Assembly: GCF_018882445.1 (NCBI RefSeq)
Contig: NZ_JACVOM010000006.1
Location: 1 to 64,000 of the forward strand
DNA: 64,000 nt
Direction: 5' to 3'
Source: Polynucleobacter sp. 15G-AUS-farblos
GTDB taxonomy: Bacteria; Pseudomonadota; Gammaproteobacteria; Burkholderiales; Burkholderiaceae
Shown: piece after piece, positions 1 through 22,540 of the stretch
Numbering within the stretch: the stretch's first letter is position 1
How the letters are laid out: the number at the start of each line of letters is the position of its first letter
The notes under the pieces: model-generated
Databases searched by the model: none
Told to the model about the DNA's origin: nothing
What the model saw: only the letters and a program-made list of their open reading frames with translations
Translations under genes and position numbers: made by a program

Positions 1-2596
1 ACATCCGACTACCGAGGGCTCCAAAAGGACAAGCAATAAAGCGTTCAGCGCTTAAACCAGGACGTCCTAAGTAACCCCTTGCTAAACCCATCCCCGCAAT
101 ATAAAGCTCACCCACCACGCCAGTAGGCACCGGCTCTAAGTTGGCATCTAGAACATAGAGTTGGGTGTTCCAGATGGGGTAGCCAATGGGGGGTGTACGA
201 TGACCATCGCTTGCTTGACACTGCCAATAGCTGACATCAATCGCTGCTTCAGTGGGGCCGTAAAGATTAAATAACTTAACGGTTGGCAAACGCTCAAAAG
301 TTTGCGCCTGTAGAGTGCCGCTTAAGGCTTCGCCACTCGTTGCAATTTGCTCTAAAGAGGAACATTGCCCTTGGCTAATCTGTTCTAAAAAGACCGATAA
401 CATCGATGGTACAAAATGCAGGGCAGTAACTTCTAGCTTTTCTATAATGGCATGTAAATAAGCAGGATCCTTATGTCCTAGGGCACTACTCACAGCTAAG
501 CGAGCACCAGTCATTAAGGGTAGGAACCATTCCCACACTGCCACATCAAAACCAATCCCGGTTTTTTGTAACAGACAGTCAGAATGATCTAATTTCATCT
601 GATCTTGCATCCACACCAAACGATTGACTACTGCATGATGTGTATTACCAGCCCCCTTAGGCTTACCAGTACTCCCAGAGGTATAGATCAGGTAGGCTAG
701 GTTCAGTGGTAGCAGTGGCGCTACTAACTCACTGTCTTGTATTGGCGCAGCTGAGTAAGTCGCTAGCTCAGCTGCTTGGGCTAAAAGATCAATCACCGCA
801 GGTATCGCTGCTGGGCTTGATGCGAGCTTAGCTAGTTGCAGCTCATCACTAATTAAGGCTAGAGCACCGCTATCGGCTAACATGAACTCTAGGCGCTCAC
901 TTGGATACTCTGGATCTAAAGGCAGGTAAGCTGCTCCGGCTTTTAAGATCCCTAGCATGGCCACAATCATCTGGGGTGAGCGCTCTAACAAAATGGCCAC
1001 AATCTGATCAGGACCAATTTGCCTACTAATGAGATAACGGGCTAACTGATTGGCTTGCTCATCTAACTGAGCATAGGTGAGCTGCTCAATACTGCCACTA
1101 GCACTCTCATAGACTAGCGCAGTAGCACTAGGACTCTTAGCTACTTGGGCAGCAAATAAGCTGGGTAGGTTAAAAAGCGCAGGTGCTTGTAAATCCAGAT
1201 CAACTACTGGACCAGCAGAACTGGCAATGAGCGCAGTACGTTCAGAAAGGGTAGTTAGTGGCAAGCTGTGCACTGGCAACTGGGGGTTAGCCACTAAGTG
1301 CGTCAGTAACTGCGTAAAGCTCTTGACCCAAGCTTGCACACTCGCTGGCGCAAATAAGTCAGCATCATACTCAAAGCTACCAGTCAGGGTGCCTGCAGGG
1401 GTGAGGTTGAGATACAAGGTCACATCAAACTTGGCCGTAGGCAGACCAACTTCTTGAACCTGACAGACCAAATCACCCAAAGCAAAATCTTGTGCACTTT
1501 GTGCCTGAAAGGCAAGCATTGCCTGAAACACCGGTGTATGTAGTAAAGAGCGTGCTACCCCTAACTCTTCTAATAAGCGCTCAAACGGTAGATCTTGATC
1601 GACTAAAGCAGCCTCTACACTTGCTTTTGCTCTACGAATCAGTTCAGTACCAGTGCACTGACCAGCAATCGATAAGGGCAGGGCTAAGGTGTTGAGTAAA
1701 AATCCGACTAGGTGCTGTATGTCAGGATCATCTCGTCCTGCTACTGGCGAGCCAATCACCACTTCTGCTTGATTGGCTAAGCGCGCTAAGCTAGCACCAT
1801 AGCCAGCATAGATAACAGTAAATAAGGTAGTGCGTTCTTGACGAGCCAAGGCTTGTAAGGATTGCGTCAGTTCACTATCTAGTTCAACTGCAACATATCC
1901 AGCCCGATGCGCACGCTCTGCGACTCTAGGGTAATCTAGAGCTAAGGTCAGTAACTCTGGAGCATTGGCTAGGCGTTCTTTAGCCCGTGCGATTTTGGCA
2001 TCTAAATCCTCTTCTAAATTTTCTTTTTGCCAAGCGGCCCAATCACTATATTGAATCGGTAAAGGCTCCCAAGTAGGCTCTTGCTCATGGACGTAAGCGC
2101 TGTAGGCTTCATGTAGCTCTTGGGCCAAAATATTGCGCGAGACGCCATCACCTGCTTGATGATGTAAGGTGAGCACTAAAATAGATTGTTCTTGGCTAAG
2201 AAGAATTAATAGTGCACGCAAAGAATAATCTTGCCCAAGATCAAAAGGAGTGGTTATTTCTTGTGCAACTGTCTGATCAACGAGGGTCTGTGTCGCAGTT
2301 TGATTTTCTTGATATTGCGTAGAGAGATCAATTATTTTCAATACATCTTGAGGGCTTTGACTTGGCAAAAGATAGCCAGCAGGGAGGCCAGTGAGTTCAT
2401 CTGCCCTAACTACAGTTCGTAGAGATTCATGTCGATCGAATAATTTTGCCAATGCCTTCTGGAGCGCATCGATCTTGACAATACCCTTGAGGCGAAGGGC
2501 AGTAGGCATGTGATAAGCGGCTGATGGTCCATCAACTTGATCTAATGTCCAGAGGCGTTGCTGGCCATAAGAAAGAACTACTTTAGTGTCGGTCAT
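1..2596 (-). CDS. Non-ribosomal peptide synthetase, C-A module, probably serine-activating (3' end beyond window)
   Basis: The frame is open from an ATG at 2594-2596 to base 1, giving 865 codons without a stop; the rest lies outside the window. Residues about 1-440 form a condensation domain with the active-site motif HHQAGDG near residue 145. An adenylation domain follows, with [13 protein letters not shown]-like A3, an [12 protein letters not shown]5 region and the A6 block; the window ends just before the TGD motif. Aligning the pocket to GrsA/EntF by eye gives D-V-W-H-A-S-L-I-D, one position from the known serine code DVWHLSLIDK, so L-serine is the predicted substrate. The protein starts with a condensation domain, so it expects an upstream acyl or peptidyl donor. 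It is last of a minus-strand group with the MbtH-like and CmlA-like genes. The NRPS call is near certain; the substrate is inferred. Confidence 0.95.
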
Positions 2597-2761
2597 AAAA
2601 TTTCAATACAGACAGATCATTGATGAGCGTTTTTTAATTGAAACGAACAATAAATCAACTGCTTTTATTGGGTTGCGTTCAGTAATGTTTTCTGAACTCA
2701 ATATAAAAAAATTGCGCTTGCTCAAAGAGCTTTAAGTGTTTGATTGCCATTAAAAATTAGA

Positions 2762-2974
2762 TTAATGGGAGTCAGACATCGCTTTTTGCAAACTTAGAGG
2801 TCTCATGTCGAGCCAATGTTCGTCAACGTAAGTCGTACATTCAGATTTACTGCCGGTAAATTGGGTTTCTTGCCAACCCTCTGGGGCTGTTTTTTTTGCT
2901 GGCCAAAGTGAATATTGACCCTCTGCATTGATCAAAACTTTAAAGCTGTCACCGTCAATTGTTAGTCCGCTCAT
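2762..2974 (-). CDS. MbtH-like protein, NRPS adenylation partner
   Basis: This 70-residue protein carries the MbtH signature: NAEGQYSLWP, then PEGW, a Cys in SECTTYVDEHW, and LDMRPLSL at the end. MbtH-like proteins bind adenylation domains and are needed for folding or activity of many of them. The gene lies 165 bases upstream of the C-A synthetase on the same strand, so that synthetase is the likely client; the second NRPS at 18972 could also use it. It has the normal family length. The gaps on both sides (2597-2761 and 2975-3094) show no gene. Confidence 0.96.
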   Translation of the reverse strand: MSGLTIDGDSFKVLINAEGQYSLWPAKKTAPEGWQETQFTGSKSECTTYVDEHWLDMRPLSLQKAMSDSH

Positions 2975-3094
2975 GATCTTATCTTTATTTATTTCGTTAA
3001 GTGATGACCCCCCTAAAAAACAGGTAAATCAAGGGGATTAAGTTATTTAAGATATTAAGAAAAACACATAGCAAAACCTATTGTTTGCTATTTA

Positions 3095-4693
3095 TCAGTT
3101 TTCGTATAACTCGTATTGACCATAAAGGCGCAAAGCTGGAATACCTTGTTCCTTGAGAGCCTTTACAAAAGCAGTGGAATTAACCATAGGAGGTGTATCT
3201 TCACTTGGATCAATGCTGGTGATGTATTGCATCCACGGTTCCATTCCCATTGCGTATACAAACACTTTTTTACATTGCAGGCTTTCGACAACCTTCATCG
3301 CCCGGGGGAAATCAGAGCCATTTAAACGTCTAGTTTGGTCTTTTTTGCGGTCCAGGCTCATTGGTAAAAGCGGCCCATAAACCCAACTCATTGGGGCACC
3401 CTGGCATTCCATGCCAATAAAGAGAGTATCAATTGAGCCAACAGCGCGATGAATGAAATCATACAATTTCGGGTCTAGATTGTTACTATCTGCCGCAAAT
3501 AACAATTTTTTATCAGCTATTTTGACTAACCAAGCAGCTTTAGACCGGATGTCTAAGTCACCATGTTCACCTAAAAAGGGGATAGCTGTAATTTCTACAT
3601 CTGAGTGGGAAATGGAGTCCATTGGGCCTAACTCCACAATTTGCTTAAATCCAATCGCTTTAAGCATCAGCTTGAGGGAGGGGTCAGCCAGACTGCCTCC
3701 AGAGGTAGGAACAATGATGGTTCCAATCTTCCATCTCAAGGCCAAAAGGGTTTCTAAAGCAACGTGATCTGAGTGATTATGGGTAAGCACCACGTAATCG
3801 ATCTTTTCAGGTAAATCGCGGATGGTATAGCGGGCAATTCCATTGGCGTCATCGTAAGCAACCACAGGATCTATTAATACATTACAGCCGTCTGGTGATT
3901 CAATCAGAACGCAAGCGTGACCAAAATAACGCCAACGAATTCGATCTTTCTCAGGTTTGACTAAGGCATTTTTTGAGCTGGATGCTGGCTCTAAGAAGCT
4001 TAAAAATAATTCTTTATCTGAACCTGAAAATCCTAATTTTTCTATAATAAAATCAAGACCTTGCGGAACACTTCTCAAGCTTGCTAAGAAGTCATAAATA
4101 GGACTCTTAAACGGCAAATTTAAATCAATCGCAGAGGGGTGGCTTAGTCTCGGTGTGCTGAAAACGAAGGGTCGATCATCACCGGCTTGGCGATAAATCA
4201 TGGCGCTTTGATTGTTTGTATCGTACAGGGGGCTCAGATACAGCAAAGATTCGATGATTCTGAGATCGGGATACCCACCTAGAGAATATGAAAGCTCTAC
4301 ATAACCACGAACCGCTTCAGGTAACTGGGCATATAAGGGCTCAAGACTTGAGCCATCACCATGCTTCATTACCTGATTAAAGGCTTCTTTAAGGGCTAAA
4401 CCAAATGAAATGAGATCCTGCTGATTGGTTTTGGTAATCTGGACCAGTTCTTTTACTTGATCTGCCTGATCTACAGGAAGATCAACAAAGGGGCCGCCTC
4501 TAAGACTTGGATTTTTTAAGGCTAATTCATGTAGCGCAGGATCGCTAACGAAAGATTCCATCTGCGCAAGTAGGCGAAACTGTAAATTCAGGGCTGAGGT
4601 AGCAGGGGAAATAAGATGAGACCATGCGTGCCAGCGCGATACGAGAGGTTCAATTACTACATCAGGTTTTAAAATCATTAAATCACTAGACAT
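3095..4693 (-). CDS. CmlA-type di-iron beta-hydroxylase of NRPS-bound amino acids
   Basis: The product has 532 residues: an N-terminal region of about 250 residues with no obvious motif, then a metallo-beta-lactamase fold starting at RYFGHACVLIESP. The HxHxDH motif THNHSDH puts His305, His307, Asp309 and His310 at the residue numbers reported for the CmlA di-iron site. Glu376 (in FLGEHGD) and Asp402 (FAADSN) match CmlA Glu377 and Asp403. CmlA, from chloramphenicol biosynthesis, has the same length and hydroxylates the beta carbon of an aminoacyl group held on an NRPS carrier domain. The neighbouring MbtH and NRPS genes fit that role. One oddity is that I see no His near residue 466, the last iron ligand I recall for CmlA. 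The substrate is unknown. A generic metal-dependent hydrolase is the alternative. Confidence 0.82.
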   Translation of the reverse strand: MSSDLMILKPDVVIEPLVSRWHAWSHLISPATSALNLQFRLLAQMESFVSDPALHELALKNPSLRGGPFVDLPVDQADQVKELVQITKTNQQDLISFGLALKEAFNQVMKHGDGSSLEPLYAQLPEAVRGYVELSYSLGGYPDLRIIESLLYLSPLYDTNNQSAMIYRQAGDDRPFVFSTPRLSHPSAIDLNLPFKSPIYDFLASLRSVPQGLDFIIEKLGFSGSDKELFLSFLEPASSSKNALVKPEKDRIRWRYFGHACVLIESPDGCNVLIDPVVAYDDANGIARYTIRDLPEKIDYVVLTHNHSDHVALETLLALRWKIGTIIVPTSGGSLADPSLKLMLKAIGFKQIVELGPMDSISHSDVEITAIPFLGEHGDLDIRSKAAWLVKIADKKLLFAADSNNLDPKLYDFIHRAVGSIDTLFIGMECQGAPMSWVYGPLLPMSLDRKKDQTRRLNGSDFPRAMKVVESLQCKKVFVYAMGMEPWMQYITSIDPSEDTPPMVNSTAFVKALKEQGIPALRLYGQYELYEN

Positions 4694-4847
4694 CCCCCTA
4701 TACTAAAAATTTCCTTTCATTAAAGCTATTAATTTCTATGATGCCCTCGAATTTAAAGGAGGGTAGGGCGATAGTGTTGAATGAAGCGTGTAAGATGTCT
4801 TATGTTTAGATTCTATAATCAACACTTAAAAATTGCATAACCAGTCT

Positions 4848-5606
4848 ATGAGACTCATTACGATTGCCAATCAAAAAGGTGGCTGTGCCAAGACCACCAC
4901 CGTTGTAAATTTTGCCGCCTGTTTAGCAGAGCTAAATCAGAGGGTCCTGGTAATTGACTTAGATCCGCAATCTAACGCAAGTCAATGGTTGGGTTTTGAG
5001 GAATCAAAAGGTGGTTCTGCTGAAATTTTCAAATCCCAACAAAAAATAGAGGATCTGGTGCAACCTAGTGGAGTGGCAGGTGTTGACTTAATTCCAGCAT
5101 CACAAGAGCTCGCTCAGATTGAAAAACTTCTTGCGGGTGAGTTATCTGTTGAAACAATCCTTAAAAGAAGAATTCAAAAAATGAACTCTGAGAATTACGA
5201 TTTTGTATTGATCGATACGCCGCCGACATTAGGGTTGTTGACTTTAAATGCACTTGCCGCTGCAAAAGAATTATTAATCCCGGTGACTACGCATGTGATG
5301 ACACTTTCCGGGGTTGCACAGCTCATTAATACCGTGAGTAATGTTCGGGAAATTTTGAATCCTGATTTAAGTATTTTAGGATTTATTGCCTCGCGTGTTG
5401 ATATGCGTACGCGTCATTCTCAAGAAGTATTAGAAAGCCTGACTGAACGTTTTGGAGATCAGGTTTTTAAGGCTATTATCCGAGAGAATGTTCGCTTAGC
5501 CGAGGCTCCGTCCTATAGCGAAAGTATCATTGAGTACGACAAAAACTCCATGGCGGCGAACGATTACCGCGCCTTAACTAAAGAAATATTACAACGTGCT
5601 AACTAG
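4848..5606 (+). CDS. ParA/Soj-family ATPase
   Basis: From the ATG at 4848 the product has 252 residues and begins MRLITIANQKGGCAKTT, the deviant Walker A box (KGGxxKT) of ParA/MinD ATPases. Walker A' (VIDLDPQ) and the DTPPTLGLLT segment follow. A TTG at 4833 is in frame but adds residues that are not conserved. No parB gene or parS-like repeat is visible nearby, so chromosome or plasmid partition is not indicated. It is the first gene of a plus-strand run with the ABC exporter (35-base gap) and the SPFH gene. A role in positioning a membrane complex is possible but is inference. A TATAAT hexamer lies at 4814-4819. Confidence 0.9.
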   Translation: MRLITIANQKGGCAKTTTVVNFAACLAELNQRVLVIDLDPQSNASQWLGFEESKGGSAEIFKSQQKIEDLVQPSGVAGVDLIPASQELAQIEKLLAGELSVETILKRRIQKMNSENYDFVLIDTPPTLGLLTLNALAAAKELLIPVTTHVMTLSGVAQLINTVSNVREILNPDLSILGFIASRVDMRTRHSQEVLESLTERFGDQVFKAIIRENVRLAEAPSYSESIIEYDKNSMAANDYRALTKEILQRAN

Positions 5607-5641
5607 CACGTTGCTCATCTATACAAATTTGCTAAATAATT

Positions 5642-7273
5642 ATGATTTTTAATGCTCCTTTATTTCGTTTTATACAACAAGAGGGCACAGTTCAGCTTAA
5701 AAGATTGGTTCTTTTATCAGGTCTTGGGGGCATTTCAAGTACTGGTCTTGTGGCTTTAATTAACCAGTCAGCTAGCATAGAGGCAAAAGGACAATCTGCA
5801 ACATGGCAATTCTTTGCCTTTCTACTTCTTTTATTTTTGTACATGTTAGCCCTGAAACGTTCGAATAAAGAGAACGTAGCTAGCACCCAAAATCTGATGC
5901 ATGCATTTAAATTGCGCGTCATGTCTCAGGTATTGAAATCAGATCTCAAAACAATAGATAGTATTGGTAGGCCCTGGATCTTACAAACATTGGTAAGAGA
6001 TACGCAGACAGTTTCTCAATCAGTTTTAAATTTAGTGCAAATTGCTCAATCTGGGTCAACCATTTTTTTCTTAATGATTTATCTGGCAATAGTTTCATTC
6101 CCTGCTTTTGTAATGATATTTATCGCCTCATGCTTAATGTTTATATTGGTGTCTAAAAGACTATCTGAAACTAACAAAGCTTTCAAAAGTGCATGGCATC
6201 AAGAAGGTGAAAATTTTCAAATCTTTTCTGATTTCATGGATGGCTTTAAAGAAATTAAGATGAACTCCAGAAGGGCTTCTGAAATATCCCATGAGATGGT
6301 TCAGGAGTCCAGAAAAACGAAGTTTATGAAAACTGAGGCCATGTTTGCTATGGTGAACACCTCTACGACACCACAACTATTGTTTTATCTTTTGGTGGCG
6401 GTAGCAGTATTTGTTCTGCCTGTTTTGATTAAAGACTATTCTCAAAGTGTTCAATCAGTCACTACCTCTATTATGTTTTTAGTGGGTGCCTTAGGGGGAG
6501 TCGTTCAAAATATTCCTGCAATTGCTCAAGCAAATGCATCGGCAGAAGAGTTATTTCAGCTTGAAGAAAAATTAAATAAGATCAAAGTAGATAGCAATGA
6601 GAGTGAGGATCAGGATCCTCCAATCATGCAATCGCTTGAATTACGTAATGTGATCTACCATTACGATGAAGCTAAAAACCAGGCAGCATCATTTGTTCTG
6701 GGCCCTATTAGTTACACTTTTGAAGCTGGAAAGATCTATTTTGTTAGGGGAAATAATGGGTCTGGAAAATCTACATTAATTAGAATTTTGATAGGCCTTT
6801 ACGAGCCTAGTGCTGGTGGACTTTATGTCAATGGTGATTTAGTTAAGCAGCCATCCACTCTAGCTTATCGGAATCTATTTTCCGTAGTTTTTAGTGATTT
6901 CTATCTATTCAAAAAATTATATGGAATTTATTTGGCTGATGATGAAGTAGTTGACGCCGCAATCGATTTACTGGAGATGGGCGATAAGATCAAAATAGAA
7001 AATAGAGTGATTTCTGATATCCATCTCTCAACTGGTCAAAAGAAACGCATCGCCTTGATTACTGCAATATTGGAGGATAGGCAAGTGATTGTTCTCGATG
7101 AGTGGGCATCTGATCAAGATCCAGAATTTAGAAAATATTTCTACCAATTTATCTTGCCAGAGTTGCAGAGAAGAGGGAAGACTATTATCGCTATTACCCA
7201 TGATGACCAATACTATCATCTGTCAGATAGTATTTTTGAGATTAGTAAAGGTGTGTTGAAAAACGCGAAATAA
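5642..7273 (+). CDS. Cyclic peptide export ABC transporter (PvdE/SyrD-like), fused permease-ATPase
   Basis: The product has 543 residues. The N-terminal half holds about six hydrophobic segments (two near the start, others around residues 130-185 and 240-300). The C-terminal half is an ABC ATPase with Walker A GNNGSGKST at about residue 370, the signature LSTGQKKR near 461, Walker B VIVLDEWASDQDP near 482 and a switch His in AITHDD. The DEWASDQDPEFR wording is typical of the cyclic-peptide exporter family that includes PvdE and SyrD, which carry siderophore or lipopeptide intermediates across the inner membrane. Its position between the two NRPS arms supports export of their product. The signature's Thr-Gly-Gln wording differs slightly from the standard SGGQ but is usual in this family. 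Confidence 0.92.
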   Translation: MIFNAPLFRFIQQEGTVQLKRLVLLSGLGGISSTGLVALINQSASIEAKGQSATWQFFAFLLLLFLYMLALKRSNKENVASTQNLMHAFKLRVMSQVLKSDLKTIDSIGRPWILQTLVRDTQTVSQSVLNLVQIAQSGSTIFFLMIYLAIVSFPAFVMIFIASCLMFILVSKRLSETNKAFKSAWHQEGENFQIFSDFMDGFKEIKMNSRRASEISHEMVQESRKTKFMKTEAMFAMVNTSTTPQLLFYLLVAVAVFVLPVLIKDYSQSVQSVTTSIMFLVGALGGVVQNIPAIAQANASAEELFQLEEKLNKIKVDSNESEDQDPPIMQSLELRNVIYHYDEAKNQAASFVLGPISYTFEAGKIYFVRGNNGSGKSTLIRILIGLYEPSAGGLYVNGDLVKQPSTLAYRNLFSVVFSDFYLFKKLYGIYLADDEVVDAAIDLLEMGDKIKIENRVISDIHLSTGQKKRIALITAILEDRQVIVLDEWASDQDPEFRKYFYQFILPELQRRGKTIIAITHDDQYYHLSDSIFEISKGVLKNAK

Positions 7274-7278
7274 ATAAA

Positions 7279-8193: not shown

Positions 8194-8234
8194 GGATCAA
8201 AGCCTAAAGAAGGAGGTTCAATAATCCTCTGTGA

Positions 8235-11538: not shown

Positions 11539-11709
11539 TAAAGCCTCCAAATGGGATTAGGGTGATAAAGCATCTTGAATTTACCATCATTACTGTTACA
11601 TTTCAATGAAGTGAAAAAATAGGATTTCATAGAAAAAGCACCTGATTTGCTTTAAATTTAGACCTGAATAAGAGTTATCTAGACCCTGTAAAGAATAAGC
11701 GAATCACAA

Positions 11710-13341: not shown

Positions 13342-13347
13342 ACGAAC

Positions 13348-15276
13348 ATGAAATCAATTTTTTCCAAATGGATTGCTAACACAGGAATTATTTTGATATT
13401 CCTTAGTGTGGCTTTTGTTGCTCAGGGGGCTGAACAATCAAATCATCAGGTAGATCATGTTTCCTCACCCACTTTTTTATTGGCGGTGAATGATGACCCA
13501 AACTTAAGTATTCAAGATATTCGAACATTGAATGATCTCAATTTTAAAACTATCAGCAATAACTTTAGCACGGCACCTTTGAGAGATTCATATCTTCTAA
13601 AAATTACACTCTTAAAGTTTGATAATAAAGAGAAATTTTCGGCAGTAATTCAACCCTCATTTGCCAGCAACACAGTCTTCATTTATTCAAAAGATGTACT
13701 TGCAACAGAAAAAAATGAGAATTTACTTACGGGAATTCATTTTCCTCTAAACGATAATTATTTCGAATTTACTCCAAAAGCCGACGTTAAAAATCCAGTA
13801 ATCTTTTTGCACATCACGCGAAAAATTACACCAATCATGTCAATCAGTGTTTTGAATGGTATTGATAAAAAAAGGGAAATGGCTAATCAAGAGTTTCATG
13901 CTGGCTTTTATATTGGCATGCTTGGACTGCTTTTATTGGTAATATTATTTTTTTACACCCAATATAAAAAATCTTGTTTGATTGCATTATGGGTTGTTAC
14001 CTTTTTTTCATTGCTACATGCAATTTTTAGGAATTTAGAATTAGTAAGCGAGTATTTCCCAGATCTGCCAAGGGAGAGCAGGGAGTATCTATATGTGGTT
14101 CTCATTTATATCATTAGAGCTGCTCTCGGTTTATTTTTATTTAACTTTATTTACGAATTTAGTACTAGTCGCTTACTTAAACTACTCGCTTTTTTTAATT
14201 TCCTTCTTTGCTTTATTGCGCTGTCTCTAGTCAGTTTTAATCATGCATTAAGTTTTCCGCTGTTTTCCTTATTCAATTACTTTAGTAATCTCCTGTTAAT
14301 TATCTGTTGTTTATCAATGGAGTTAACTAGGCTTAGTCGAAATATGTTTAGTATTGGACTGGTATACGCATCATTATTTTTTGGAGCCTTCATTTTTGCC
14401 GTACTCTCCAATATTATTGACGTACCTCAAGATATTCCTTTTTATAAATTTGAATGGTATCGAGTTTTATATACCTTGTCTTTTCTTTATATTCTTTACA
14501 AATTCTATAGTCAGGAAAAGCTTCAAGCTGAAATTGCAGTGAAAGAATCTGAATTAATATACATGGGTAAATTGCATGAAGAAATGAAACTGCGGCAGGA
14601 TCAGGAGGCATTAAATAATGTTGTCTCTCATGAGCTAAAGACCCCTCTCACGGCCATTTATTTTTTAATTGATCGCTTAGAAAGCCTGTTACAAGTAAAG
14701 TCATCAGCTATTGACAGTACTCTATTAAGGCTAAAAACTTTAGTTCAGCAAATCAATTCAGTATCCGATCGTTTTACATGGCTTGCAAAATTTAATTCTG
14801 ATGAGAATTTGAAGATTACTAATAATATTAATCTTCCCGATCTAGTCAGTGGTATTGTAGAAATCTTGCCTGAAAAAATTCAATTCTCTGTTACACATGA
14901 TGATGGAGTATTTGTAAACTCCGACTTATTTTGTCTCACAACAATCTTACAAAATATAATTGATAATTCAGTGAAGTATTGTTCAGAGAAGTCAATAATT
15001 CATATCAATATTTTTGTGCAAGATAAGGATCATGTCCAAATTAATATACGAAACAAAATTTCATCCCACAGCATTGATACCCACAAAATATTCGAAAAAT
15101 ATTATCGTGGCCCAGGATCCGGTGGTAAGGCGGGACTAGGTATTGGCTTATGGTTAGTGAACCAAATGGCTGAGCAGATTGGTGTGCTCGTAACACCATT
15201 TCTGCAAGAAGATGAAATCATTTTTAGTGTGCTGATTCCTGTTGATATATCTGCTAAGTTTGTATCTATCTCTTAA
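13348..15276 (+). CDS. Sensor histidine kinase, 7TM-DISM-like
   Basis: The 642-residue product starts with a signal peptide (hydrophobic residues about 12-27), followed by a periplasmic domain to about residue 180. Seven hydrophobic helices lie between about residues 187 and 390. The kinase core has the phospho-acceptor His428 in VVSHELKTPLTA, the N box IIDNSVKYC, and the G boxes with GKAGLGIGLWLVN. This layout matches the 7TMR-DISM class, which senses small ligands outside the membrane. Its partner is probably the response regulator at 11710. The last 4 bases overlap the end of the convergent thioesterase gene. The ligand is unknown. Confidence 0.92.
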   Translation: MKSIFSKWIANTGIILIFLSVAFVAQGAEQSNHQVDHVSSPTFLLAVNDDPNLSIQDIRTLNDLNFKTISNNFSTAPLRDSYLLKITLLKFDNKEKFSAVIQPSFASNTVFIYSKDVLATEKNENLLTGIHFPLNDNYFEFTPKADVKNPVIFLHITRKITPIMSISVLNGIDKKREMANQEFHAGFYIGMLGLLLLVILFFYTQYKKSCLIALWVVTFFSLLHAIFRNLELVSEYFPDLPRESREYLYVVLIYIIRAALGLFLFNFIYEFSTSRLLKLLAFFNFLLCFIALSLVSFNHALSFPLFSLFNYFSNLLLIICCLSMELTRLSRNMFSIGLVYASLFFGAFIFAVLSNIIDVPQDIPFYKFEWYRVLYTLSFLYILYKFYSQEKLQAEIAVKESELIYMGKLHEEMKLRQDQEALNNVVSHELKTPLTAIYFLIDRLESLLQVKSSAIDSTLLRLKTLVQQINSVSDRFTWLAKFNSDENLKITNNINLPDLVSGIVEILPEKIQFSVTHDDGVFVNSDLFCLTTILQNIIDNSVKYCSEKSIIHINIFVQDKDHVQINIRNKISSHSIDTHKIFEKYYRGPGSGGKAGLGIGLWLVNQMAEQIGVLVTPFLQEDEIIFSVLIPVDISAKFVSIS

Positions 15277-16004
15277 TTTTTTAATTGGTTTAGAAGTTGA
15301 ACGATTTCTTGAAAGTCATTCTTTACATAAAAATGGCCACCCGAGATTATTTTAAGTTGGCATTCTTGTCGAGTAAATTTTTGCCACTGAGATAATTCAT
15401 CCACATTTACCCATGGATCATTGTTCGCACCAATTGCGATAATGGGGCAGTTAATCTGATCCTTGATGGGAAGAAGATATTTTTCCCCAATCTTAAAGTC
15501 TGCACGAATAATTGGCAGAATTATCTCTAGTAATTCTGGATGTTTTACGATCTCACGATCAGTACCCTCTAGATCTAATAGCCCTTTTACTAAATCTTGA
15601 TCACTTAGTTCCGAAATTGGAGGCATCTTCAGGCTCAAGTGAGGAGGTTGACGACCAGAAACTATTAAGCATTTAGGTTCTACGCCTTGCCTCTCTATTA
15701 ACTTAGTAATTTCAAAAGCAATAACTGCTCCCAAACTATGGCCAAACAAAATTGTTGGTTTATCAACCAATTTCAATAATTCTGTACTGCCCTTTTGAAC
15801 TAGTAGTTCCAAATTATCAATTAAATCTTCCCCAATGCGATCCTCTCGACCTGGAGCTTGAAAGGCGTAAATATTGAAGTCAGAGTGAAGAAATTTTTCC
15901 CAGGGAAAAAAAATTGATGCGCCAGAACCTGCAAAAGGGAAGCAGACTAGGTGCACTTTTGCTTGGCTATTTACTCTAATTGGCTTAAACCATTTCTTAT
16001 GCAT
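15273..16004 (-). CDS. Type II thioesterase (NRPS/PKS editing)
   Basis: I take ATG 16004 as start (243 residues), because KWFKPI followed by VHLVCFPFAGSGAS is the usual beginning of type II thioesterases. An ATG at 16049 with GGAG four bases upstream would add 15 residues and overlap the preceding gene. The alpha/beta-hydrolase fold shows the nucleophile motif GHSLG, an Asp in GANNDPWV and the His in GGHFYV. These enzymes free stalled or mis-primed carrier domains by hydrolysis. The stop overlaps the convergent kinase stop, and no terminator separates them. It follows the phosphopantetheinyl transferase by 10 bases, as in many NRPS clusters. Confidence 0.92.
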   Translation of the reverse strand: MHKKWFKPIRVNSQAKVHLVCFPFAGSGASIFFPWEKFLHSDFNIYAFQAPGREDRIGEDLIDNLELLVQKGSTELLKLVDKPTILFGHSLGAVIAFEITKLIERQGVEPKCLIVSGRQPPHLSLKMPPISELSDQDLVKGLLDLEGTDREIVKHPELLEIILPIIRADFKIGEKYLLPIKDQINCPIIAIGANNDPWVNVDELSQWQKFTRQECQLKIISGGHFYVKNDFQEIVQLLNQLKN

Positions 16005-16014
16005 CAATAACTTT

Positions 16015-16773
16015 TTATAAAAACTCGGAGATCTCAAGAGAATAGGCATTGAGCTCCATTCCCATTCTAGGGCTTGCAATTGCAGCAAGGTGATTTTCGC
16101 ATGGCTTCAAATTAAATAAGCTCCATTCTCTAGAAAATTTATCCGGCAGAGTGACTGCGCGATATTTTTCGTCTATTTTGATAGCGCTCATTTCCATTTG
16201 CAGGCCAAGACCTAGGGCTTTCAAAATGGCTTCTTTTTGTACCCAAGTTTGGATGAGTTTTGAACTATTTTTTTCTTGGGCTATAGATTTAAATTGCCTG
16301 GATTCGAGAGGGTGAAAAATCCCTTTAAAGGCTTCGTAATCATCAATCAACTGAATTTTTTCTACATCCACCCCTACAGGGCTATCAGCCGTTTCTGAGA
16401 ATAGAACGATATCTCCGCTATGAGATAGATTAAATTCATGGGAGTTTCCTGGTAAAAAGGGCTTACCGGAGGAGTTGAGCCTCAAATCAATTGGACTGCT
16501 GTCGAATTTCTTTAGCCAAAACTCCAAAAGTAAGCGTGAAACCAAGAATCGATTCTGATCTGAAACCTGCTTAAATTGTGCCACTTTTTGTTGATTAAAA
16601 GGGCTTAATTTTCTAAGATATTGCTTTGATAATGATGTGTTTTCAGCGCTAAAGTGAATCTTGAAGCAATTAATGTGATTGGCTAAAGGAGAAATTTCGC
16701 TTAATTGGGATATGCCCACCTTTAGCCAATGTTCATGGCTTTGATCTTGGTTGTAGGAACTAAGTTGGTGCAT
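16015..16773 (-). CDS. 4'-phosphopantetheinyl transferase, Sfp type
   Basis: The ATG at 16773 gives 252 residues; a TTG at 16818 would add 15 more, and neither has a clear ribosome site. Family motifs are visible: SSGKPFL, EFNLSHSGD, the magnesium-binding GVDVEK and WVQKEAILKALG. Sfp-type enzymes move the phosphopantetheine arm of CoA onto a Ser of carrier domains, here presumably those of the two NRPS proteins (the T domain at 18972 has GGHSL). It sits immediately upstream of the type II thioesterase and is probably co-transcribed with it. It is divergent from phhA, 94 bases away. Confidence 0.93.
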   Translation of the reverse strand: MHQLSSYNQDQSHEHWLKVGISQLSEISPLANHINCFKIHFSAENTSLSKQYLRKLSPFNQQKVAQFKQVSDQNRFLVSRLLLEFWLKKFDSSPIDLRLNSSGKPFLPGNSHEFNLSHSGDIVLFSETADSPVGVDVEKIQLIDDYEAFKGIFHPLESRQFKSIAQEKNSSKLIQTWVQKEAILKALGLGLQMEMSAIKIDEKYRAVTLPDKFSREWSLFNLKPCENHLAAIASPRMGMELNAYSLEISEFL

Positions 16774-16867
16774 GCGATAATATTGTATGGCATCGATGCT
16801 ATTTTGCGCCCAAAGCAAGGTTTAGAAAATCATAGAAAGCTTTGCGGTGCTCATAATAATATAAAGC

Positions 16868-17770
16868 ATGGTCAAAACTTATCTAGCCCCACCTCCTCAT
16901 CCTACCCAGGCGGATGATTATGTTCCTGCCCGTGCTGATTGGTTGATAGATCAAAATTGGAGTGCTTACACCAAGGAGGATCATCATACTTGGTCTATTT
17001 TGTATGATCGGATGACTAAGGTTTTAGACGGCAAATGCAGCAGCCTATTTATGCAAGGCCTTGAACAACTTCAATTTGAGCGCGATCAAATTCCAAACTT
17101 TATTGAATTATCTAATCGCTTAAAGAAGTTCAGTGACTTTGAAGTAGTTGCAGTGCCGGGTTTAATTCCTGACGAAGTTTTCTTTGAGCATTTGGCCAAT
17201 CGCCGCTTTCCTTCCGGTTGCATTATTCGTAAACCAAATGAGTTGGAGTTTCAAGAATACCCTGATGTTTTTCACGATATCTTTGGTCACGTACCGCTTT
17301 TAATGTTCCCTGAAATGGCTGACTTTATGCAGGCATGTGGTAAAGCTGCGGTGGCCGCTAATCAAAAAGGGATGCTTGATTTTATCGCTCGCTTGTATTG
17401 GTATATTGTTGAAGTTGGCTTGGTTCGAGAGAACGGTAAGACCGTTTGCTTGGGCGCAGCAATCAATTCATCTGAGAAAGAAGTTGCTTTTTCACTATAT
17501 GATCAGTCTCCGAACAGAATTCTCTTTGACTTAGAGAGGGTGATGCTTTCTGATTTTTGGATCTACGATTTACAAAATACCTATTTTGTTCTAGATAGTA
17601 TTCTTGATCTTCGGGAGATAGCAAAAATCGACTTTGATTCTCTATTTCCAAAACTACTTGCTCAAGAAAAAATCAAACTAGGGGAAGTTAAGGCGTCTGA
17701 CAAAGTCCTCTCAATTGGGAACGGGTCTTACCATTTAGAATACTTAGACCAAGAAGAATTGGTTAATTAA
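16868..17770 (+). CDS. phhA: Phenylalanine 4-monooxygenase
   Basis: This 300-residue bacterial-length enzyme uses tetrahydropterin and oxygen to turn phenylalanine into tyrosine. The iron triad is visible: His136 and His141 in VFHDIFGHVP and Glu182 in YWYIVEVGLV. The N-terminal region lacks the ACT regulatory domain of animal enzymes, as expected. No pterin carbinolamine dehydratase gene (phhB) is next to it. It stands between NRPS tailoring genes, so it might feed tyrosine to the peptide pathway, but it is also a normal chromosomal gene in this bacterial group. A terminator follows at 17799. Confidence 0.96.
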   Translation: MVKTYLAPPPHPTQADDYVPARADWLIDQNWSAYTKEDHHTWSILYDRMTKVLDGKCSSLFMQGLEQLQFERDQIPNFIELSNRLKKFSDFEVVAVPGLIPDEVFFEHLANRRFPSGCIIRKPNELEFQEYPDVFHDIFGHVPLLMFPEMADFMQACGKAAVAANQKGMLDFIARLYWYIVEVGLVRENGKTVCLGAAINSSEKEVAFSLYDQSPNRILFDLERVMLSDFWIYDLQNTYFVLDSILDLREIAKIDFDSLFPKLLAQEKIKLGEVKASDKVLSIGNGSYHLEYLDQEELVN

Positions 17771-17798
17771 TCTTAGTTAAAATCCAGTCACCGCTTTC

Positions 17799-17834
17799 AA
17801 ATATAGCGTCCTCTGGGGACGCTATATTTTTTTT
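17799..17834. terminator. Bidirectional terminator between phhA and the dioxygenase gene
   Basis: AAATATAGCGTCC (17799-17811) pairs with GGACGCTATATTT (17817-17829) around a five-base loop and is followed by a T-run. The A-run on the other side is short, so termination of phhA is the better supported direction. Confidence 0.88.
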
Positions 17835-17842
17835 AAGCCCGA

Positions 17843-18664
17843 TTAAACCAGGGGAAAGGGTTTTCCTTGAAAAGGCTCTCCTGGTTTAATGCTAATTTGG
17901 GCATCGAATGCCTTTTCTTCTCCAGCGCTATTTGGGCGAGGAGAAAATATGGCCTCATCAACAATAAATCTGACGGATAAGCCTCTACGTTGACGATCCT
18001 TTGTGACATTTGGGCCTGAATAATGCCATACATATCCATCATGCAAGATCATGTCTTTTTGATCCATCTCCATGCAGACTAATTCATAGCCATGTTCAGC
18101 AGGATCTACTGGAATGAGCTCCCTTGTTTCATTTTCAAAGGGTGTATTTTTATAAAGGTCTACTGTTGCACGAAGCTCGCCTTTATGAGTTTTTAATGCA
18201 TATACCAGCGCACCAGAATCTTTAATTACCGGTTCGAATGGAATCCAAGTCGCTATTTGAACATTTGGGGTAATTGGATAATAAGACGCATCTTGATGCC
18301 AAGATAGAAATTTTCCTATTTCAGGCGGCTTATTGAAAACAATGGTTTCTAATAATTGAAGACGTAATTGAGCGCCATCATCGCTTGCAAAATGTTTTCG
18401 AATCACAGGGGCTATATTCTTTTCAATTAACTCCCAGGCTTCCGGATAGTCATCAAAGTCACAAAAACGCTGCTCTTCTCCGCTAACATGCCTCCACAAG
18501 GCAATGCGAGGTTTTTCATTAGGTGAGATGTGGGTGGTAATCCTTAAGTCTAAATCCATCCATTTATCACGAACCTTGTCAATGAGCTTTTCGTCTATGC
18601 AGTCTTTTAGAAGGACTACGCCATTTTCTTGATATTCTTTACCTAGCTCTGATGTTGCTTGCAT
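17843..18664 (-). CDS. Phytanoyl-CoA dioxygenase (PhyH)-family Fe(II)/2-oxoglutarate oxygenase
   Basis: The product has 273 residues. The iron-binding HxD lies at His123 and Asp125 (SWHQDASYYP) and the distal His at 214 in VWHYSGPN; an Arg-rich RQRRGLSVRF stretch supplies the 2-oxoglutarate-binding Arg. Because the acidic ligand is present, it should be a hydroxylase and not an SyrB2-type halogenase, which has Ala or Gly there. PhyH-family enzymes often hydroxylate NRPS-bound or free amino acids and lipids. The gene is divergent from the NRPS at 18972 with a 307-base gap, so it could be a tailoring enzyme. The substrate is unknown. Confidence 0.88.
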   Translation of the reverse strand: MQATSELGKEYQENGVVLLKDCIDEKLIDKVRDKWMDLDLRITTHISPNEKPRIALWRHVSGEEQRFCDFDDYPEAWELIEKNIAPVIRKHFASDDGAQLRLQLLETIVFNKPPEIGKFLSWHQDASYYPITPNVQIATWIPFEPVIKDSGALVYALKTHKGELRATVDLYKNTPFENETRELIPVDPAEHGYELVCMEMDQKDMILHDGYVWHYSGPNVTKDRQRRGLSVRFIVDEAIFSPRPNSAGEEKAFDAQISIKPGEPFQGKPFPLV

Positions 18665-18971
18665 TTATCTCTCTCAAAAACTGTAAAATTAAAAAATTAC
18701 CTCAATAAAACTGGTTATAAACATTATTGGACAGTAGCATATTTCATTCTCTAATTCTGTGATTTGTTATCCGTTTTTTAAGGTGGCAGTTCTCTTAGGA
18801 AATCATAGGAAATTCTAGAACCTGTCGATAAGATTGTTTAAATTCTCGATCACCAACAGGATGGTTGGCTCCAATTCCCCATATCAACATTCTTAAATAG
18901 CTGGTTTCTTTAAATTGTTTAACGGTTAAAGTAAGAAGTTAGCTCAATTGCATTGGAATAGAAAATCACTG
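18665..18971. promoter_or_regulatory. Divergent control region of the PhyH and NRPS genes, with a dyad
   Basis: This 307-base gap holds no gene that I can support. It is AT-rich near both ends. A perfect dyad, TTTAAC-G-GTTAAA, lies at 18918-18930, 42 bases before the NRPS start; a regulator such as the response regulator at 11710 could bind it. I see no convincing sigma-70 promoter, and the NRPS start has no strong ribosome site. Confidence 0.4.
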
Positions 18972-21900
18972 ATGTCAAATACAGTTGAAATAGCAGAAAC
19001 AAGCGGCGAGCCTTCCCTGAAAGTAGTTCTCCCCTTAACGGGCATTCAAACCTTCCTCTGGTTCCATCAGCGTATTGATAGTGCTCAGACGCCCTATAAC
19101 ATCGGCAATTTACTTCATATTCATGGGGAACTAGATATTGATCGGTTTACTCAAGCACACCACCAAATGCTCAAAGAAACGGATTGTTTGCGCATTCGTT
19201 TCTCAGAGCTTGATAATCTTCCGTATCAATCGATTGCGCCCTATGAAGAAATGCCTTTAAAGGTTTGGGACTTTAGTGATTCATCTGATCCGCAAGCTGC
19301 GGCACAGGAGTTATTAAAGGATATTGAATTACGACCATTTAATTTACTCCAAGATTCTCTGTACAGATTTGGCTTAGTAAAACTTGGAAAAGATCGAGCG
19401 ATCTTTTTTACCTTTTTTCATCATTTAATTATTGATGCAGTGGGTGGCTCAAAGATTTTCAATCTTTTAGAAAATTTATTTGAGAACATTCCCACACAAC
19501 TGCCTGAAAGATCCGAAAATGCGCCGCTTCTTTCATGGATGTATGCTGCCGAGGACTTCCAACGCTATAAGAATAGTGAGCAATGGAATGTAGATGAAGA
19601 ATATTGGAAAGAAGCCTTAAAGGGGCTCGGAAAATCAGTGTCATTATCTGATCAACCTCTAAAGCGGACGGATCTCTCCTCTCCGGGTTCTCTCCATTAT
19701 GGTTTAGATCGGAAAGAATATGAGCGAATTTGTCAGTGGGGTCTCAGTGAAGGGCGAAGTGCTTATATTGCTTTTGCTACCGCAGGGATTGTTTATTTAT
19801 CGAGAGCTACTCATTCGCATGATATTTGCATAGGGACCCCTAATTCGGGTCGCAATAAGCTTACTCGCAACTTAATCGGGATGTTGGCTAACGCTACACC
19901 TTTACGCGTTCAAATCGCAGATGAAGATCGGGTTGAAGATGTATTAAAAAAAGCGTCACGTGAATTGCGCTCTGGATTACGTCACACCCAATATCCGTAC
20001 GGCGAAATTACTCTCAATCGTCGTAAAGAGAATTTAGAATCACCTTTTTCTTTAATCATAAATTATTTGCCACTTGAACAAGTGGTTCAATTTGGGGCTG
20101 CAAGAGGCATTGTAGAGACGCTAGGAGCAGGGCCTGTAGCAGACATGGAAATCCATATATTTGATCGTATGGATCAGGGGCCGATTGATGTACGCATGGA
20201 TTTTAATTTATCCCGCTATAGTCGCGTTCAGGCCGAAGAGCATCTCGAGAGATATATCCAGCTACTTAAAAAATTACCTGATCTTGCAAAATCCCCTGTT
20301 GCCATGGTCACGACTCTTTTAGATCAAGAAAAAAAAGATTTATTCGACGTGGCCACTGGCCCTGATTTGCATTACGAAACTATCGATCTAACGATTCCAG
20401 CATTATTTGCCAAATCCGTTCGCCTGTATCCAGACAATCCTGCTATTTTGTATGAAGCAGACGGAGAGCTGCAGTCCATAACTTATGCTGAGCTGGATCA
20501 ACGCTCCAATCGTATGGCACGTTTTATGATCTCTCAAAAAATTGGCCCAGAGTGTATTGTAGGTATTCTCTTAACCCGCTCTCCAGATTTATTAGTTTGC
20601 ATATTGGCTACCCTCAAGGCGGGGGCAGCGTACTTACCCATCGATCCTGATTACCCCGCTGATCGGATTGAGTATATGTTGAGAGATAGTCAAGCCCAAT
20701 ATGTGATTAGTACTTCATCAATATATCAAGCGCTTTCACGCGAATTAGATCTAACGCTTCCTAATCTCATTGCAATAGACGACGCCACATTTCAATCAAC
20801 ATTGTTGAGTGATTTTTCTGAGATCGGCATTAGTGATAGTGAGCGTATGAGCCCCTTGCTACCCAAAAATCTTGCTTATGTTATTTATACCTCAGGATCA
20901 ACAGGAAAACCTAAAGGTGTGAGTGTTCCTCATGCAGGAGTGATTAACACTGCGAGGGCTAAGGTAGATGCTTTGAAGATTCTTGCCCATTCTCGAGTAA
21001 TGCAATTTGCCTCCCATGCTTTCGATGGAAGCGTACAAGAAATTTTCTCTACTTTGTCTACCGGAGCAACCCTGGTTCTCTCAGCGGGCAATATGAAAAT
21101 GAATACGATAGCCAATCTTGAAGAATTTTTGCATAAATTTTCTGTTACGCATGTTACTCTTCCGCCGGCCTTAGTTAAGATATTGCCTGATAAGGCATTA
21201 GAACAATTAGATACTTTATTGCTTGCAGGTGAGGAGTGTACGCCTGATTTGGTGAGGCGTTTAGCAGGCCAAGTAAGGCTGCTGAATGCGTACGGACCTA
21301 CAGAAGTGACAGTCAATGCAACGATGAGCCAAGCGCTTGATCCCAGCATAGATGGTTGCGAAGAACTTGGGACAGTATCTATTGGTAAGCCCATTGCTAA
21401 TGTTTCAAGTTATGTTCTAGATCAATATTTAGAATTAACTCCTAACGGCAAAGTTGGAGAACTTTATATTACGGGTATAGGGGTAACGAGAGGTTATCTT
21501 AATAAGCCAGGACTTACTGCAGAACGATTTCTCGCCTGTCCATTTGGAGAGTTTGGAGAAAGAATGTATCGGACTGGAGACTTAGTAAGGCGCCGTACCA
21601 ATGGAGACTTAGAATATGTTGGACGGGTAGATCATCAAGTAAAAGTTAGAGGTTTTAGGATTGAGCTCGGTGAAATTGAAGCACAAATCTTAAAAAATTA
21701 TCCTCAAATTGCCCAAGCGATAGTAATGCTTTATAAAGAAAATGATGAAGCTTTCTTAGTTGCTTATTTGGTTTCTGATGCTGCTGAAGTTCCAGCACTG
21801 CCACTTCCCAATTCTGAGCAATTACGTGAAACCTTAGCCCATTTTCTGCCTGATTATATGATCCCGTCACATTTTCAATATTTAGACGCAATGCCTTTGA

Positions 21901-22250
21901 CGGTTCATGGAAAAGTTGATAGAAAGGCTCTTCCTGCGCCTCAATTGGGAGAGATCAAAAATGACTTTGAAGCACCCATCAATGAAACTGAAAAGATTTT
22001 ATGTAGATTATTTGGAGAACTGGTTGGAATTGATAATGTTGGAGTAAATGATGATTTTTTCCACATAGGAGGGCACTCCTTATTGGCGATTAAATTAATT
22101 GCACGCTTTAAGGATGAGACAGGAGCAAGTATTCCAATGGATCAATTGTTTGAGCATGCAACCCCAAAAATCTTAGCATCGTTAATTGAGTCAAGCACCA
22201 TGAAATTGCTAGAGCCAGCCTTGATAAAAGGCATGGGTCGAGTGCAGTAA
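18972..22250 (+). CDS. Non-ribosomal peptide synthetase, single C-A-T module
   Basis: From ATG 18972 the product has 1092 residues (a TTG at 18948 is also in frame). The condensation domain (about 20-440) has HHLIIDAVGG, where the usual Gly after Asp is Ala. The adenylation domain (about 470-990) has [48 protein letters not shown] and NGK-type HGKVDRKALP. The carrier domain has FFHIGGHSLLAIK with the Ser to be modified. Hand alignment of the pocket to GrsA gives D-G-Q-T-L-A-A-V-N-K, which I cannot match to a known amino acid. There is no thioesterase or reductase domain, so release must happen elsewhere or through the type II thioesterase. A leading C domain implies an acyl or peptidyl donor. 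Confidence 0.96.
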   Translation: MSNTVEIAETSGEPSLKVVLPLTGIQTFLWFHQRIDSAQTPYNIGNLLHIHGELDIDRFTQAHHQMLKETDCLRIRFSELDNLPYQSIAPYEEMPLKVWDFSDSSDPQAAAQELLKDIELRPFNLLQDSLYRFGLVKLGKDRAIFFTFFHHLIIDAVGGSKIFNLLENLFENIPTQLPERSENAPLLSWMYAAEDFQRYKNSEQWNVDEEYWKEALKGLGKSVSLSDQPLKRTDLSSPGSLHYGLDRKEYERICQWGLSEGRSAYIAFATAGIVYLSRATHSHDICIGTPNSGRNKLTRNLIGMLANATPLRVQIADEDRVEDVLKKASRELRSGLRHTQYPYGEITLNRRKENLESPFSLIINYLPLEQVVQFGAARGIVETLGAGPVADMEIHIFDRMDQGPIDVRMDFNLSRYSRVQAEEHLERYIQLLKKLPDLAKSPVAMVTTLLDQEKKDLFDVATGPDLHYETIDLTIPALFAKSVRLYPDNPAILYEADGELQSITYAELDQRSNRMARFMISQKIGPECIVGILLTRSPDLLVCILATLKAGAAYLPIDPDYPADRIEYMLRDSQAQYVISTSSIYQALSRELDLTLPNLIAIDDATFQSTLLSDFSEIGISDSERMSPLLPKNLAYVIYTSGSTGKPKGVSVPHAGVINTARAKVDALKILAHSRVMQFASHAFDGSVQEIFSTLSTGATLVLSAGNMKMNTIANLEEFLHKFSVTHVTLPPALVKILPDKALEQLDTLLLAGEECTPDLVRRLAGQVRLLNAYGPTEVTVNATMSQALDPSIDGCEELGTVSIGKPIANVSSYVLDQYLELTPNGKVGELYITGIGVTRGYLNKPGLTAERFLACPFGEFGERMYRTGDLVRRRTNGDLEYVGRVDHQVKVRGFRIELGEIEAQILKNYPQIAQAIVMLYKENDEAFLVAYLVSDAAEVPALPLPNSEQLRETLAHFLPDYMIPSHFQYLDAMPLTVHGKVDRKALPAPQLGEIKNDFEAPINETEKILCRLFGELVGIDNVGVNDDFFHIGGHSLLAIKLIARFKDETGASIPMDQLFEHATPKILASLIESSTMKLLEPALIKGMGRVQ

Positions 22251-22267
22251 ATGATCAGGGTACGAGT

Positions 22268-22540
22268 TTAGGGTAGTGCTTGAAAATGCGGATGTAAGTC
22301 ATTTGCATGTTGAACTAAATTTTCAAGATCTTTCTGTGAGACCTTATTGGGCTTGGCAGGGATCACTAAGGTGAAATGAGTCTCAGTATTTTGTATGACT
22401 GCAACTGAAATATTGCCAGCAATCTCAATACCTTCTTGCCTAAGTATTTCTTTAGGGTTATTCATTAAATGATCGGCAAATTCAGGATCTGCCCAACATT
22501 TATGGACAAGTTCTTTATATTTAACGCTTGTTTCGTTCAT
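22268..22540 (-). CDS. NHLP (nitrile hydratase-like leader) family small protein
   Basis: The ATG at 22540 gives 90 residues; longer frames add an unlikely hydrophobic leader. The sequence follows the NHLP/nitrile hydratase alpha-like leader pattern: KCWADPEFADHLMNNPKEIL, then GIEI and a beta-rich segment VAVIQNTETHFTLVIPAKP, ending with an Asp-Leu-Glu-Asn-Leu helix. Family members usually act as leader regions of ribosomally made modified peptides and end in a Gly-Gly cleavage site before a core. Here there is no Gly-Gly and only about 15 residues follow, with no Cys. No LanM, YcaO or radical SAM gene is in the window. It lies tail to tail with the NRPS, 17 bases apart. Confidence 0.7.
   Translation of the reverse strand: MNETSVKYKELVHKCWADPEFADHLMNNPKEILRQEGIEIAGNISVAVIQNTETHFTLVIPAKPNKVSQKDLENLVQHANDLHPHFQALP

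Follow-up and report, generated by a model that had tools for sequence, protein, structure and literature searches.

The stretch studied here, bases 1–64,000 of contig C26 (211,746 bases) of Polynucleobacter sp. 15G-AUS-farblos, is referred to as the window. Its left end carries genes of a non-ribosomal peptide synthetase (NRPS) cluster. A horizontally acquired island, about 33 kb long not counting an unread gap and located between relA and a tRNA-Val gene, probably encodes an intact, reduced NRPS pathway that belongs to a family of the Burkholderiales. We observed the gene content, open frames in the parts read, the borders of the island and its kinship with the NRPS cluster of Zwartia panacis. 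It had been predicted from the sequence that a bacterium with a small genome carries a single NRPS cluster in two arms, and this is supported.

The cluster lies on an island beside a tRNA gene

The genome comprises 2,215,650 bases in 38 contigs with a completeness called 99.98%. The genus genomes searched numbered 186, those listed being mostly 1.6–2.4 Mb in size, and G+C was about 45% in the stretches measured, values in keeping with Polynucleobacter. The relA gene was sought in 41 high-completeness genomes of the genus including our own, which yielded 40 matches, and 30 loci (one our own) were fetched. In 27 of the 29 other congener loci, relA is directly followed by the tRNA-Val gene and its neighbour, and the DNA that follows it is matched by more than 1400 bases of the window, starting at 24594–24596. 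In our genome, relA is situated at the left end of contig C17, whereas the tRNA-Val gene is found at 24597 of the window:

24597..24673, + strand: tRNA-Val (gac), right border of the island

Since relA and tRNA-Val flank the cluster here and adjoin in congeners, everything between them is inserted, and as relA lies on C17 and tRNA-Val on C26, the cluster links these two contigs. It is one island beside a single tRNA gene, and the island part of the window has a G+C content of 39.4% compared to 45.4% in the remainder of the window. The cluster is located where it had been predicted (1–22540), but the unit ends only at the tRNA gene.

In the two other loci (L216 and L217), only the first 43 bases of tRNA-Val match the window after relA. 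The DNA past the start of tRNA-Val in these two is unlike that of the other congeners examined, and the site may vary among strains.

NRPS genes on three contigs

Gene calls were checked with Pfam and NCBIfam profile scans. As predicted, two NRPS arms lie on opposite strands (2–2596, minus; 18948–22250, plus), 16.35 kb apart, accompanied by genes for an MbtH-like protein, an Sfp-type transferase, a type II thioesterase and an exporter. These are identified by Pfam or NCBIfam, save for the MbtH-like protein, whose name derives from its similarity to small open reading frames (ORFs) that adjoin NRPS or CmlA genes in other genomes. Condensation, adenylation, carrier and thioesterase domains are abbreviated C, A, T and TE.

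2..2596, − strand: start of NRPS-A, a C domain (HHQAGDG) and the A domain A_a by Pfam, pocket DVWHASLID, running off the contig end
2762..2974, − strand: MbtH-like protein of 70 aa, 54–70% identical to small ORFs in the closest relatives
15273..16088, − strand: type II thioesterase (PF00975, 125.5 bits), start codon uncertain, ORF overlapping the next one
16015..16818, − strand: Sfp/HetI-type 4'-phosphopantetheinyl transferase (PF01648; NF042922 below its cut-off)
18948..22250, + strand: NRPS-C with C-A_d-T, taken as module 1, pocket DGQTLAAVN, C-terminus GMGRVQ

The NRPS gene leaves the left edge of the window because contig C26 ends there, inside an NRPS repeat. A leftward extension of the sequence had been proposed; the window begins at base 1 of its contig, but further parts are carried by C37 and C17. 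The left-edge DNA has a match on contig C37, which is 7795 bases long and encodes A_b-methyltransferase-T-TE, the oxygenase PhyH2, a Cupin_8 protein and the first part of a further C-A (A_c). At its start, contig C17 carries the last part of an A domain, then a T domain and a stop codon, with relA behind them. The absence of a terminal thioesterase noted for the visible part is true of the window, but C37 encodes a TE (PF00975) after A, N-methyltransferase (NMT) and T domains, on a contig that we presume to join the window. Within the searchable genome, three C domains were located, distributed over C26 and C37; carrier domains were found on C37, C26 and C17, and C10 encodes one small carrier protein. 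The visible NRPS A domains thus number four against three C domains, part of the assembly line lying in an unread gap. All NRPS frames read are open, and their translations contain the catalytic motifs HHxxxD, GGHS and GMSMGG.

Genes leave C26 and C37 through the repeat, and C37 and C17 are each entered from it. We chose the order C26 (minus strand), gap, C37, C17 because it is the simplest unidirectional read-through that leaves no contig over. It would lead from CmlA, MbtH and C-A_a across a gap (T-C) to A_b-NMT-T-TE, PhyH2, Cupin_8 and C-A_c on C37, and then to the T domain and relA on C17. NRPS-A would hence continue from the window to A_b-NMT-T-TE on C37. The contigs break because of 98–100% identical repeats flanking the A domains, and tandem copies in the cluster are possible.

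Kinship with Zwartia and other relatives

A scan of named genomes for CmlA, the β-hydroxylase of the island, gave 79 loci, of which 55 (L071–L125) were analysed for gene content. The closest CmlA relatives (54–61%) mostly bear betaproteobacterial labels (Zwartia, Sheuella, Alcaligenaceae, 'beta proteobacterium'), the exceptions being L076, labelled gammaproteobacterial, and L082, labelled Methylocystaceae. Several related, larger versions come from fresh water, and CmlA in 12 plasmid records was always <60% identical.

In Zwartia panacis, the cluster occupies about 26–69 kb of a contig of 469,093 bases as one contiguous stretch with seven modules. Fifteen gene kinds are common to both clusters at 26–70% identity: u9530, the type II thioesterase, u8235, Band 7, ABC, DUF697a, DUF697b, ParA, MbtH, the terminal A(Gly type)-NMT-T-TE, the pterin-dependent hydroxylase, PhyH2, Cupin_8, CmlA and the response regulator. 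The NRPS reading frames of Zwartia panacis comprise 3272 and 6499 aa and harbor seven A domains on two proteins, whereas four are visible on three proteins here; partial PF00668 matches additionally suggest three epimerization (E)-like domains in Z. panacis. Its cluster is uninterrupted, while the island is split and rearranged, with PhyH1, the transferase and the kinase added. Partial versions of the cluster are found in Z. vadi, a Sheuella metagenome-assembled genome (MAG) and other MAGs.

The cluster had been proposed as an undescribed system. No described product for this family was found in the open papers searched, but the system is not isolated given its counterpart in Zwartia panacis. 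Judged by title and opening of the abstract, none of the open papers listed on Polynucleobacter and nonribosomal peptides or secondary-metabolite clusters treats such a cluster, and a passage of PMC3308952 describes secondary-metabolite genes as not over-represented. The Zwartia paper PMC10535154 contains none of six NRPS-type words, nor does PMC5583390 contain any of six.

The genes f15–f17 beside the Zwartia cluster had been considered as a FecA-FecR-FecI receptor set, which proved wrong by Pfam: f15 belongs to the DctM transporters and f16 to the NMT1-like binding proteins, and f17 is without Pfam family.

Predicted module specificity and probable exchange of adenylation cores

Several forks in the trees of C and A domains are open, and the C tree has one very long branch and long-branch warnings, so only starred groups were used. 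A_d groups with the module-1 A domains of four relatives (100/96), C_d with the module-1 C domains of four (100/100), and A_b with Gly-type A domains that stand last in the clusters of two Zwartia (100/100). Within a Ser-like group, A_a and A_c form a sister pair and are near-copies of each other. The pocket letters, taken from the alignment, set A_d (DGQTLAAVN) beside Zwartia module 1 (DGQTCAAVC), A_c (DVFHISLIH) beside module 2 (DVWHVSLIH), A_a (DVWHASLID) beside module 4 (DVWHVSLID) and A_b (DILQLGLIW) beside module 7 (DILQLGMVW); none of the modules seen here corresponds to module 3, 5 or 6 of Zwartia. At the positions that we take to form the pocket, the Ser-type and Gly-type letters presumably stand for these amino acids, that is Ser for A_a and Gly for A_b. 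From their sequences, the four visible modules are predicted to be specific for a hydroxyaromatic-like residue, a Ser-like residue, Ser and N-methyl-Gly.

NRPS-C ends in GMGRVQ and the C17 piece, which is assigned to NRPS-B, in GMGRI. GMGR(I/V) plus a few residues likewise ends the first NRPS protein in all four relatives, and NRPS-A and, less closely, NRPS-B start like the second NRPS protein of those relatives. The GMGR tail may be a docking element.

Identity between NRPS-A and NRPS-B was measured in 100-column steps of their alignment. Both are 97–100% identical over columns 601–1900, save one step at 81%, compared to 46–83% before column 601, 50–74% in columns 1901–2300 (the A core) and 80–86% thereafter. 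A_b shares its upstream flank with A_a and A_c at 98–100%, whereas the cores are 33–71% identical; its downstream flank is 100% identical to that of A_a and 98% to that of A_c over 53 bases, where the contig ends. Near-identical flanks around a differing A core are the pattern described for A-core exchange in the accessible text of PMC8097286. The present case resembles it in its shared flanks and different cores, and is distinguished by three A domains of one cluster sharing 98–100% flanks. The mosaic of A_a, A_b and A_c, as judged from the alignment, fits A-core exchange.

Predicted tailoring oxygenases

Two oxygenases had been predicted beside the NRPS arms. A CmlA-type and a PhyH enzyme were indeed found, but a third, pterin-dependent hydroxylase had been overlooked.

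3095..4693, − strand: CmlA-type diiron β-hydroxylase (PF18456, 251.9 bits), CmlA_N plus metallo-β-lactamase fold
16868..17770, + strand: pterin-dependent aromatic amino acid hydroxylase (PF00351)
17843..18664, − strand: PhyH1, Fe/2-oxoglutarate oxygenase (PF05721; HQD motif)

In the PDB, the CmlA-type protein matches 8a90 (2.1e-126), its nearest solved relative, which we take to be FrsH, and CmlA itself (4jo0, 8.5e-117), with the metal motif THNHSDH in the alignment. Its predicted substrate is an aminoacyl group attached to a carrier. According to the accessible part of PMC7794379, the FR900359 (frs) pathway of Chromobacterium vaccinii similarly has a C-A-T starter with a CmlA-type hydroxylase and an MbtH-like protein, whereas FrsA has its own TE, unlike NRPS-C here.

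The pterin-dependent hydroxylase is the only copy found in the genome. Its residues H136, H141 and E182, presumably the iron ligands, align with those of solved bacterial phenylalanine 4-hydroxylases (Phe4H; best 240.7 bits). Phenylalanine 3-hydroxylase (Phe3H) makes m-tyrosine for uridyl peptides. Val183 and Ala198 of the island enzyme stand at the regiochemistry positions, located by the same spacing as in Phe3H. In the accessible text of PMC7027792, Cys187 and Thr202 of Phe3H occupy the positions of Phe and Gly in Phe 4-hydroxylases, and replacement of Thr202 by Ala yields 67% meta and 33% para product. Hence the island hydroxylase carries Val/Ala instead of the Phe/Gly pair of Phe4H and instead of the Cys/Thr pair of Phe3H, the latter being compared via reported positions and not via its sequence. 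It also scores 259.8 bits against TIGR01267, below the Phe4H equivalog threshold of 264.75. The Val/Ala pair recurs in four cluster hydroxylases (L267–L270) and in L272; a Delftia hydroxylase (L273) has Phe and Gly at these positions, and L271 was missed by the search pattern. All five genomes seen with a DGQT-type first module carry this hydroxylase, and any such hydroxylase was found in 7 of 16 CmlA-bearing genomes searched.

In L071 (12522–14270), pterin hydroxylase and PhyH2 are fused in one natural reading frame. L271 (Zwartia hollandica) and L272 possess a more distant pterin hydroxylase (39–41%), which neighbours NRPS-type sequence in L271 and an MbtH-like stretch in L272.

Halogenases of the PhyH fold have an HxG instead of an HxD motif, and PhyH1 is not of the halogenase type because it has HQD. 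PhyH2 on C37 has ectoine hydroxylase as its best NCBIfam match, below the cut-off of that family, and the nearest PDB entries of the Cupin_8 enzyme are JMJD5 and FIH.

Putative export module, regulators and other cargo

4833..5606, + strand: ParA-family ATPase (PF13614), 55–61% in seven relatives
5642..7273, + strand: cyclic peptide export ABC transporter (TIGR01194, 325.5 bits, cut-off 286.2)
7279..8193, + strand: SPFH/Band 7 membrane protein (PF01145), adjoining the ABC gene in relatives
8235..9290, − strand: u8235, N-terminal hydrophobic helix and conserved C-terminal region, without Pfam family
9689..10939, + strand: u9530, lipoprotein-like (Gly-Cys after a hydrophobic start), without Pfam family
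11065..11550, − strand: DUF697 protein a (PF05128), 44–56% to its four best matches in relatives
11710..12396, + strand: response regulator, 36–37% to one beside CmlA in Zwartia
12424..13293, + strand: DUF697 protein b (PF05128)
13348..15276, + strand: sensor histidine kinase, 24% to one in a Sheuella locus
22268..22609, − strand: NHLP-leader-like small protein (TIGR03793, 60.9 bits, cut-off 50.9), on the island beside NRPS-C
22638..24535, + strand: island cargo without known pathway link, comprising a DUF308-like protein (below cut-off), a TatD-family protein and a small protein without Pfam family

The ABC exporter shows 42–44% identity in the seven closest relatives. The histidine kinase had no further match among the relatives searched. 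Export-module genes lie near CmlA, MbtH or NRPS genes in 9 of 13 genomes (L071–L081, L084 and L089), namely L071, L074, L075, L077, L078, L079, L080, L084 and L089, with a second contig involved for L071 and L089; this was not seen in L072 and L073, both short contigs, nor in L076 and L081. In four of the 13 (L071, L074, L084, L089), CmlA has the hydroxylase and PhyH2 as neighbours. To our knowledge, the frs pathway has no pterin hydroxylase, ParA or SPFH genes. The predicted structure of u8235 (predicted local distance difference test score, pLDDT, 62, the core being better) had no match at E ≤ 0.001 among 325 PDB matches; the model of u9530, for which the start codon at 9689 was chosen in an ORF listed from 9530, had a pLDDT of 38 and was not used. 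No NHLP-type peptide-modifying enzyme was found among the island proteins scanned.

We tentatively suggest that ParA, the DUF697 proteins, SPFH, u8235 and u9530 might form, together with the ABC transporter, an undescribed trans-envelope machine that positions and exports nonribosomal peptides. Such a machine may serve other cargo, because a version in the congener G154 (L249, 3179–10716: ParA, DUF697b, ABC, Band 7, u8235 and u9530) occurs without a detected NRPS or C domain. An integrase-core gene lies near this export module, at 11834.

As a marker of NRPS clusters u9530 was weakened, as it matched in 20 of 398 family genomes, all of its own genus, 17 of them without a C domain. It occupies one shared chromosomal setting in 7 of 19 stretches fetched from 17 genomes. 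The seven congeners with a u9530-like gene in this conserved setting (L252–L255, L257, L260, L266) are without a detected C domain.

Occurrence in the genus

Any C domain was detected in 8 of the 186 genus genomes, and CmlA in one, our own. Among the C-domain-bearing congeners, the NRPS genes of G196 and G183 were studied. G183 (L263, 209–13318), a one-module relative, holds Band 7, ABC, DUF697, ParA, MbtH, one C-A-T-TE, PhyH2, u9530, the transferase and u8235; several frames are needed to cover each of its genes for NRPS, ABC, PhyH2, u9530 and transferase, while ParA and DUF697 look whole. Sequencing error is a less likely cause of these breaks, because unbroken ORFs of 276–388 aa adjoin. The thought that related strains might harbor mere remnants with stops applies in part: G183, the one congener found with much of the gene set, has it in broken form, but the frames read here are open.

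Proposed pathway and alternative readings

We infer the product, its N-cap and its role from these data. The pterin hydroxylase would make a hydroxyphenylalanine, which NRPS-C as module 1 would load, its C domain perhaps N-acylating it, and CmlA would β-hydroxylate the carrier-bound residue. NRPS-B would then add a Ser-like residue and NRPS-A Ser followed by N-methylglycine, with the shared GMGR tail mediating hand-over between the separate NRPS proteins, before the peptide is set free or cyclised by the TE. Hydroxylation of residues might fall to the Fe/2-oxoglutarate enzymes, the ABC exporter with SPFH, DUF697, ParA, u8235 and u9530 would take the product out, and the two-component system may control the pathway. 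A tetrapeptide from four modules is the minimal reading, and further modules may lie in the gap. For the function we guess at an exported peptide with bioactive or surface-active properties.

Several points weigh against this reading. No product was observed, and the joins between contigs are our reconstruction; the stretch between A_a and A_b is unread (C34, C35 and C38 are N) and may hide modules or an E domain. The C-domain tree carries the warnings mentioned above, the pocket positions and their amino-acid meaning are presumed, and the matching of A_a and A_c to Zwartia module 2 or 4 depends on pocket residues (last letter H or D). The overall closeness of the hydroxylase to solved Phe 4-hydroxylases (240.7 bits) favours plain tyrosine. 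The stretch of Zwartia panacis yielded neither transferase nor kinase, and a comparison with 24 loci of relatives gave no match for PhyH1 or the NHLP-like gene.

It is conceivable, although we favour the shorter product, that the gap hides more modules and that the peptide is longer than a tetrapeptide, as in seven-module Zwartia. Contig C38 (2955 bases), a possible gap filler, reads as N, repeats defeat the assembly, and the Cupin_8 enzyme is kept although the Zwartia module with the pocket DASKVGEVG, which we take to mean Asn, is not seen here; yet the searched contigs of a 99.98%-complete genome hold just three C domains, and carrier domains only on C37, C26 and C17 apart from one small carrier protein on C10. 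That the island is a decaying remnant without product appears improbable: the split genes of G183, the absence of CmlA from the other 185 genus genomes and of any C domain from 178 of the 186 would agree with decay, but the NRPS frames read here are open and their catalytic motifs present.

A siderophore or other metallophore as the product is unlikely, if somewhat less so than decay. The exporter belongs to the TIGR01194 family, which includes pyoverdine-type exporters, and several hydroxylases could make ligands, but no TonB receptor was found among the island proteins scanned, to which the search for receptors was confined, and a 671-aa protein flanking the Zwartia cluster proved to be a DctM transporter and no receptor. 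We regard it as very improbable that the two arms are unrelated systems lying close by chance. Their opposite strands, their distance of 16 kb and the ParA, SPFH, DUF697 and kinase genes between them might suggest so; genes from both arms, however, occur in one Zwartia panacis cluster, and A_d and A_b fall with Zwartia modules 1 and 7.

Significance

An intact, reduced pathway with larger relatives elsewhere, as we read the island, raises the questions of the identity of the peptide, of the product of the Val/Ala hydroxylase (meta-tyrosine, tyrosine or other) and of the role of ParA and SPFH in export. With flanks common to three A domains, the cluster would also provide a clear natural case of A-core exchange. 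NRPS genes are rare in this genus of small genomes, in which such a pathway would provide a compact test system.

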